Of a stretch of DNA of 41,388 nt, positions 1 through 15,438 are shown piece by piece. Both the position numbers and the translations under genes were made by a program. The stretch comes from Verrucomicrobiota bacterium (GTDB taxonomy: Bacteria > Verrucomicrobiota > Verrucomicrobiia > Limisphaerales > JAIPKD01), in assembly GCA_021733835.1 (NCBI GenBank), contig JAIPKD010000025.1, forward strand, positions 1-41,388, given 5' to 3'. Each line of letters opens with the position of its first letter. Position 1 is the stretch's first letter. Below the pieces are notes generated by a model, which was given only the letters and a program-made list of their open reading frames with translations, searched no databases and was not told the origin of the DNA.

Positions 1-674
1 AATTCAACTTCATTCTCATCGGGCAACCTCATCAGCCAGTCGATCAGCCGAAATAAGTTCAGCACCTCCTCCTTGCTGTAACCTCGCTCGTACAACCGCC
101 GCGTCAGCTCCCACTTCATACGCTTACGCTGCGTCATGTCCCGGCGCGTCCGCTGCGTGGCCAAGTACGCCGCTATCACCACAGCGGCAGGATTCCTCTG
201 CTCTTCCAGCCATTGCCAATTCTTGCCGAATTCCATTAGCTTGCACACCGGATACCGAAATCTAAGCTCATACCCCCACAGCCGCTCCTCGTATGTGTCG
301 GGACACCACTTGGGATTCGCATCGGCCAATATCGCCAGGCTCACCACAGACTCATCATACCGGTCGGCTATCCGGTGATGGTACCGGTACATCCGTCGCG
401 GCAAGTCCTTGTCCACCCAACTCTGCACCTCCACGTGGATCAGTATCAATTCCTTCCGGTCGTCTTTGCGCCATACCTTGACCAATTTATCCACTCGTTG
501 CTTACCCCGTTTTGCGTCCCTGGTCACCTTCTGGAGTTCCTTATCCAAAAACTCGAACTTCTTATGCCAGTTTATATTGCCGGCAACCTCCGGGAAACAG
601 AACTCCAGGAGCGGTTGGAGGTATTGCTCCAGCGCCTCTTTCCAAGCCCCGTCGTAATCGGTTTGTCGTTTCAT
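1..674 (-). CDS. Rpn family recombination-promoting nuclease / putative transposase (PD-(D/E)XK), 3' end truncated by window edge
   Basis: Not in the ORF track because no stop lies inside the window. Manual reverse-strand translation from ATG at 674 gives an open frame to position 1: MKRQTDYDGAWKEALEQYLQPLLEFCFPEVAGNINWHKKFEFLDKELQKVTRDAKRGKQRVDKLVKVWRKDDRKELILIHVEVQSWVDKDLPRRMYRYHHRIADRYDESVVSLAILADANPKWCPDTY..., with the Rpn-type 'ELILIHVEVQ...RMYRYHHRI' core. Confidence 0.88.
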   Translation of the reverse strand, partial: MKRQTDYDGAWKEALEQYLQPLLEFCFPEVAGNINWHKKFEFLDKELQKVTRDAKRGKQRVDKLVKVWRKDDRKELILIHVEVQSWVDKDLPRRMYRYHHRIADRYDESVVSLAILADANPKWCPDTYEERLWGYELRFRYPVCKLMEFGKNWQWLEEQRNPAAVVIAAYLATQRTRRDMTQRKRMKWELTRRLYERGYSKEEVLNLFRLIDWLMRLPDENEVE

Positions 675-781
675 GACAATCTTGTGGTGATGCTACATCG
701 TCAAGTGGTAATAATGCAAAGAAATAATAGCCATGAATATAATCTGGATATTTAGTCAAGTACGCCAAAAAACGCGGAGAA

Positions 782-885
782 GTTTTGATTCCGGTTTCGT
801 TTACGTACACGTTTTTCGTATAGGTTCATCGACTGCGAATAATCAGAAACGCGAACGTGTAGTTGAACCTAGCTGGAATCAAAAC
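782..885. repeat. MITE/REP-like palindromic element, copy A
   Basis: Perfect 11-bp terminal inverted repeats GTTTTGATTCC (782-792) and GGAATCAAAAC (875-885); internal inverted pairs TACACGTT/AACGTGTA (806-813/854-861) and TAGGTTCA/TGAACCTA (821-828/864-871); shares sequence with 15252-15370. Confidence 0.7.
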
Positions 886-15213: not shown

Positions 15214-15251
15214 AAAAAGCCTCTCGGTAAGGGCGCAAGAAACGCAAAGAA

Positions 15252-15370
15252 GTTTCGACTCCGGTTTCGTTCACGTACACGTACACGTTCTCGTTCACGA
15301 TTCCGATTATTCGCAGTCGATGATACTATACGATAAACGGGGACATGAAAGGAAACGTGTACGCGAACGG
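15252..15370. repeat. MITE/REP-like palindromic element, copy B (core inverted relative to copy A)
   Basis: Left arm about 88% identical to 771-812 in the same orientation; 19-nt core GATTATTCGCAGTCGATGA (15305-15323) is the exact reverse complement of 826-844; inverted arms CGTTCACGTACACGT (15268-15282) and ACGTGTACGCGAACG (15355-15369), 14/15 complementary. Confidence 0.65.
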
Positions 15371-15406
15371 GAGAGGGGAGCGGAGCGCGACTGTGTCCGA
15401 AGGATC

Positions 15407-15438
15407 AGCCGCAGCGGCTCTCTCCTCCTGGGAGGAGA
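15407..15438. repeat. Two adjacent short palindromes
   Basis: AGCCGC-A-GCGGCT (15407-15419) and TCTCCTCC-TG-GGAGGAGA (15421-15438), both with perfect arms. Confidence 0.6.

Follow-up and report, generated by a model that had tools for sequence, protein, structure and literature searches.

REPINs and REP doublets are short, non-coding, interspersed sequences whose inverted repeats form hairpins in intergenic DNA, and REPINs are considered to be non-autonomous mobile DNA (PMC3116915). Bacterial MITEs and stem-loop-containing sequence families are small palindromic interspersed repeats (PMC2267715). A third kind of element, the IVS of 23S rRNA with its S23/IVP ORF, makes a long hairpin from terminal inverted repeats. 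The Coxiella IVS is closed by a terminal stem of 28 bp and carries heptameric direct repeats upstream of its ORF (PMC4990558).

Here, we describe an interspersed hairpin repeat of a known general kind whose arms are unusual in design and in which the fixed orientation of core relative to flank has been demonstrably and recurrently lost. The repeat shares with REPINs and REP doublets its small size, its lack of coding capacity and its dispersal as inverted-repeat hairpins through intergenic DNA. However, its arms are tandem arrays of a 6-nt unit that vary in length, rather than REP units, and it has a conserved asymmetric core rather than a variable spacer. We considered a RAYT/Y1 protein as mobiliser and rejected it: the draft genome, which is 92% complete, yielded only a single Y1_Tnp match, to a degraded fragment that lies close to the edge of a contig and is interrupted by two stop codons. 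Resemblance to MITEs lies in the small, palindromic and interspersed form and, for a second family found in genome G007, in terminal inverted repeats. By contrast, the family described here is a composite that includes two independent repeats, which we call mod and pal, and inspection of its copies revealed no terminal repeats, fixed outer ends or target duplication; nor could we link a transposase or a target-site duplication to the hairpin family. Relative to an IVS, the element has a comparable long hairpin, but it lacks an ORF, lies outside rRNA and has a 6-nt arm unit of different sequence. Inverted arms of tandem short repeats are present and the PF05635 four-helix-bundle ORF is absent, and since there is no such ORF within it, the element is not an IVP element despite the similar architecture.

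Two copies in one window and the family they belong to

The host genome is a 2.84-Mb draft in 114 contigs, and the window, the whole stretch of DNA analysed here, is the 41,388-nt contig C80. We sampled the genome by similarity searches and by retrieving the stretches around the matches. Two loci in the window, copy A (766-885, upstream of argJ) and copy B (about 15236-15418, forward strand), each sit between divergent genes. An earlier note on this DNA had reported that the left arms of the two copies match directly at 37 of 42 positions over 771-812, that a 19-nt core is an exact reverse complement between them, and that inverted arms surround the core in both. Our recount of the left arm agrees, and the direct match extends to 47 nt with 87% identity (766-812 against 15236-15282). 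The 19-mer at 826-844 is indeed the exact reverse complement of 15305-15323, and the inverted match around it is longer than had been claimed, covering 77 nt at 77% identity (792-868 against 15281-15357). Across the genome, the direct flank match has an E-value of 7e-10 and the inverted core match one of 9e-12, so that neither is due to chance. Inverted arms beside the core are likewise confirmed in both copies, being complementary at 14/15 positions in B and 25/32 in A.

Both loci belong to a family of interspersed repeats with about 24 copies, which are non-coding and form hairpins. We compiled the family by using A and B as queries and then scanning the retrieved DNA, which gave 23 clear cores and a diverged one on contig C33. 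A covariance model, R1, recovered 24 copies in the same genome when we scanned 146 genomes, comprising this one and 145 relatives, none closer than order level. In the 145 relatives, R1 produced a single weak hit, from a separate hexamer-armed family, and the exact core pattern had no match in GTDB genomes or IMG/VR.

Read in the direction of the core, a typical copy consists of mod, a left (CGTWNN)n array, a 42-nt core, an inverted right hexamer array, and pal. The mod sequence reads ..GCGAAGGACGCGAAGAAGTTTCGATTCCGGCTCCGT, the typical core is GATTCCGATTATTCGCAGTCGATGATGCTATACGAAAAACG, and pal (CGGAGCGCGGCTGTGTCCGAAGGATCAGCCGC...CACAGCCGCGCTCCG) is by itself a palindrome of ~130 nt. Spacings between mod and core are mostly multiples of six (36, 36, 42, 42, 42, 48, 66 and 78, with 131 in a long form on contig C73). 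Some copies carry a different core, core II (CGATTTCCGTGATTTCGGTCATT...GGATTTATTCC), either between the same modules or stacked ahead of core I. Both mod and pal are also present without a core. The 24 cores are all situated in the gaps separating long protein-coding ORFs, and no more than four of them overlap even a short ORF (122-176 aa). Elsewhere in the genome, a GxxExxY (PF13366) gene at C93:4440-5400 lies inside tandem palindromic repeats of ~88 nt (CTCTCGCAAAGGCGCAAAGGACGCGAAG...GCGCTTGGCGAGAG), one half of which mod resembles.

Copy B has the normal family form, with every module on the forward strand. Alignment and a module scan place mod at 15236..15267; it is followed by the left array CGTTCA CGTACA CGTACA CGTTCT CGTTCA CGATTC at 15268..15303 and by the core at 15298..15339 (R1 hit 15286-15354, 74 bits), which contains the inner hairpin CGATT-C-CG[ATTATT]CG-C-AGTCG. 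A partly degenerate inverted right hexamer array occupies 15340..15375, and the 5' part of the palindromic pal (CGGAGCGCGACTGTGTCCGAAGGATCAGCCGC...) occupies 15381..15418.

Copy A is the deviant form. A full mod, located in the same way as that of B, lies at 766..797 on the forward strand. The hexamers CGTTTA CGTACA CGTT that follow at 798..813, also on the forward strand, are at once the arm of mod and the inverted right arm of the core, which is reversed relative to the flank (810..850, reverse strand; R1 hit 795-863 minus, 68 bits). What is normally the left side of the core then follows on the reverse strand at 850..885, in 6-nt register, as a decayed arm and a truncated second mod, mod' (GTTTTGATTCC, 875-885). 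The inverted repeat of A, 782-813 / 854-885, reaches out to mod and mod'. An Rpn-like gene, encoding a putative PD-(D/E)XK protein and cut by the contig edge, lies at 3..674 on the reverse strand; the match of its protein to NCBIfam TIGR01784 is weak (E 0.054, far below the cut-off).

Orientation of the core relative to its flanks

In nine of the ten copies with mod within 300 nt of the core, mod is to the left of the core and in the same direction; the exception is A. Similarly, pal is to the right of the core and points the same way in 15 of 15 cases, besides which one distant pal lies in the opposite orientation 171 nt from the core on contig C27. The earlier note had regarded B as the rearranged copy. 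Since B follows the family order and A alone is reversed, we conclude that the discordance between flank and core is real but that the roles of the two copies are swapped.

The extended left flank of A, which is the 5' region of the Rpn-like gene, is common to eight loci including A, with 82-87% identity. Among these eight loci, those on contigs C56, C114 and C73 have core I in the normal direction, those on C64 and C71 have core II in the normal direction, that on C77 has a truncated start of core II, again in the normal direction, and that on C108 has no recognisable core; a reversed core occurs in A alone. It had been proposed that discordance would be refuted if all other copies had a fixed flank-core orientation and if the flank similarity disappeared once more copies were aligned. 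Orientation is fixed in all other flank-bearing copies of this genome, whereas the flank similarity is stronger with more copies. The Rpn-like genes form a family whose 5' region is dispersed at at least eight loci, each time followed by mod and usually by a hexamer arm and core.

The weak R1 hit mentioned above led to a second family, in genome G007, which belongs to the same order but to another family. This genome has about 30 copies (loci L269-L303) with CGTCCT/CGTTCT hexamer arms, a different core, and TIR-like ends, that is, MITE-like terminal inverted repeats (GCCTGTTTT.AAAAT) outside the hexamer arms. When the copies are oriented by their cores, 19 have flanks in the normal order. In four others (L290, L293, L296 and L297), the flipped position of a flank is strongly supported, with profile scores of 22-32 against a null maximum of at most 4.8, and in L297 both flanks are above the null in the flipped position. 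The flank position of the remaining copies is ambiguous or weak. There are thus at least four discordant cores in G007 besides that of A, indicating that core reversal is recurrent in the hexamer-armed architecture. A loop variant, CCAGGGG, tends to be common to the flipped copies, suggesting that a single old inversion took place and then spread. In-place inversion fits L297 better than fusion does, since both of its flanks are in flipped positions. The probable cause of the lost flank-core orientation in G007 is inversion, whereas for A we consider an exchange by way of interchangeable arms to be most likely. Shuffled modules and reversed cores, in small hairpin repeats joined through inverted tandem arrays, are thus seen in two separate families of one bacterial order.

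Origin of the arrangement in copy A

Since the right array repeats the left one in inverted form, arms can be exchanged between copies in either direction. Consistent with this, 19 of 24 copies have a left arm with 12 nt or more in common with an inverted right arm of a different copy, as compared with 0 of 24 in direct orientation. The joint in A, CGTACACGTTTTTCGTATAGG, recurs exactly, as a 21-mer, at another locus and matches the reverse complement of the junction between core and right arm on contig C84. It includes an arm string that occurs both as left arm and, inverted, as right arm, and A keeps normal core-arm junctions on both sides. A has mod on either side of its core and no pal. With the mod PWM, mod' scores 15.8 within 57 nt to the left of the core; two of 1452 background stretches of the window reach this score, and these are taken to be the true mod (36.6) and the mod' stretch itself. 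By eye, about 22/30 positions of mod' match, and this decay makes it uncertain where A originally ended on its right. Another joint at this position is found at C108:10117: there, the same flank, mod and arm lead, by way of the arm, into a pal-side flank in reversed orientation.

We favour, with a probability of about one half, an origin of A by arm-mediated, head-to-head fusion of the Rpn-like flank, mod and arm to an element on the opposite strand. Such an element would already have been present upstream of argJ, with its own mod' and a normal core junction. A dispersed unit, made up of the 5' flank of the Rpn-like gene, mod and the left array, would then have joined through its hexamers to the inverted right array, probably by recombination or template switching within the arms. 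The outcome would be mod on both sides of the core, absence of pal, and a core that is reversed with respect to the Rpn-side flank. The repeat itself may spread as a non-autonomous mobile element. We infer the fusion from this one copy.

A possible but distinctly less probable origin is inversion of the core in place between the hexamer arrays, through hairpin- or cruciform-primed template switching or RecA-type recombination. Quasi-palindrome template switching inverts loops and perfects arms. The inverted arms, the hairpin predicted in the copies that were folded, and the strongly palindromic character of A out to mod and mod' are all consistent with such an event, as are the G007 cores, four of which are in clear disagreement with one flank or more (in L297, with both of them), against 19 that are normal. 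However, a simple flip of a B-like unit does not give A, since pal would stay on the right; mod' takes the place of the expected pal there, unlike in the other 22 scanned cores, and a second event, such as a separate gain of mod', would be needed. The earlier note had offered core inversion, insertion in either orientation or folding-mediated rearrangement as explanations. The reversal of the core in A, the suitability of the arms and the flank-discordant cores of the G007 family bear these suggestions out in part, whereas A would not result from a B-like unit being simply inverted where it lies.

It is improbable that the repeat acts in cis as an RNA or regulatory site for which its direction with respect to mod has no importance. 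In favour of such a role, conservation is higher in the core than in the arms, 93% of cells pair in the inner hairpin (CGATT.CG[ATTATT]CG.AGTCG), where one pair covaries, changing from C-G to U-A in 5 copies, and both A and B lie between divergent genes. Nevertheless, Rfam yields only a tRNA in the window and no family matching the hairpin repeat, and the orientation of neighbouring genes is mixed across copies. Moreover, although in most of the copies that were folded the arms can pair into a long but imperfect hairpin, with 76% of arm cells pairing, the pairing of the whole structure is little above that of column shuffles, 57 of 500 of which reach it. Arm pairing thus follows from the repeated unit rather than from strict compensation, and strict base-pair compensation in the arms is not supported beyond what shuffles give. 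RNAalifold predicts only a few pairs.

Slightly less probable again is an assembly artefact, in which the metagenome assembler joined two loci inside the repeat. The genome is a draft in many contigs, A lies less than 900 nt from a contig end, and its joint has a 21-mer in common with another locus. Yet 21 nt is the longest stretch that A shares with the other loci of its own genome that we compared, which is short for the larger k-mers usually employed and makes a chimeric assembly unlikely. In addition, the modules of A have private substitutions, and its right flank occurs nowhere else among these loci. Finally, a dedicated invertase or programmed switch, with a site-specific recombinase acting on the arms, is not indicated and is very improbable: an asymmetric core flanked by inverted arms has the broad outline of an invertible segment, but the arms are degenerate hexamer arrays of variable length and not fixed recombination sites, every other copy with a neighbouring mod has one orientation, no recombinase is present among the neighbouring proteins examined, and the core contains no gene.

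Inverted arrays at IVP genes

The same genome has at least seven copies of PF05635 (23S rRNA IVP), all outside the hairpin repeat and most with inverted GAAATC/GATTTC hexamers around them. Inverted arrays are also found at IVP genes elsewhere. Among 23 IVP loci of order-level relatives, 17 show an inverted repeat of 30 nt across the gene that pairs at 24/30 positions or more, as against a control maximum of 22, and these repeats are mostly made of 7-nt units. We then considered 61 IVP loci in named genomes, drawn from Verrucomicrobiota, Planctomycetota, Bacteroidota, Fibrobacter, Omnitrophica, Proteobacteria and others. An inverted repeat of 22/30 is reached by 52 of these loci and by 2 of 122 controls. 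In a literature search of partial coverage, we found no account that presents heptamer arrays, paired and inverted, as a general trait. The hexamer-array architecture ties the hairpin repeats to IVS/S23 (four-helix-bundle) elements, and inverted arms of ~7-nt units at IVP genes in several phyla offer a testable handle on the spread of these long-enigmatic elements. We suggest, as a speculation that we hold to be rather doubtful, that inverted tandem arrays of 6-8 nt units are a general architecture of a poorly recognised class of bacterial mobile hairpins that includes IVP elements and non-coding relatives such as the repeat described here, and in which the arms render the enclosed core freely invertible and exchangeable between copies.

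Several of the IVP copies in the host genome, on contigs C66, C105, C13 and C12, have in-frame stops, as if the family were decaying. The tandem units of ~7 nt around PF05635 genes differ in sequence from locus to locus, and the closest named relatives of the IVP proteins of this order are mostly from Verrucomicrobiota.
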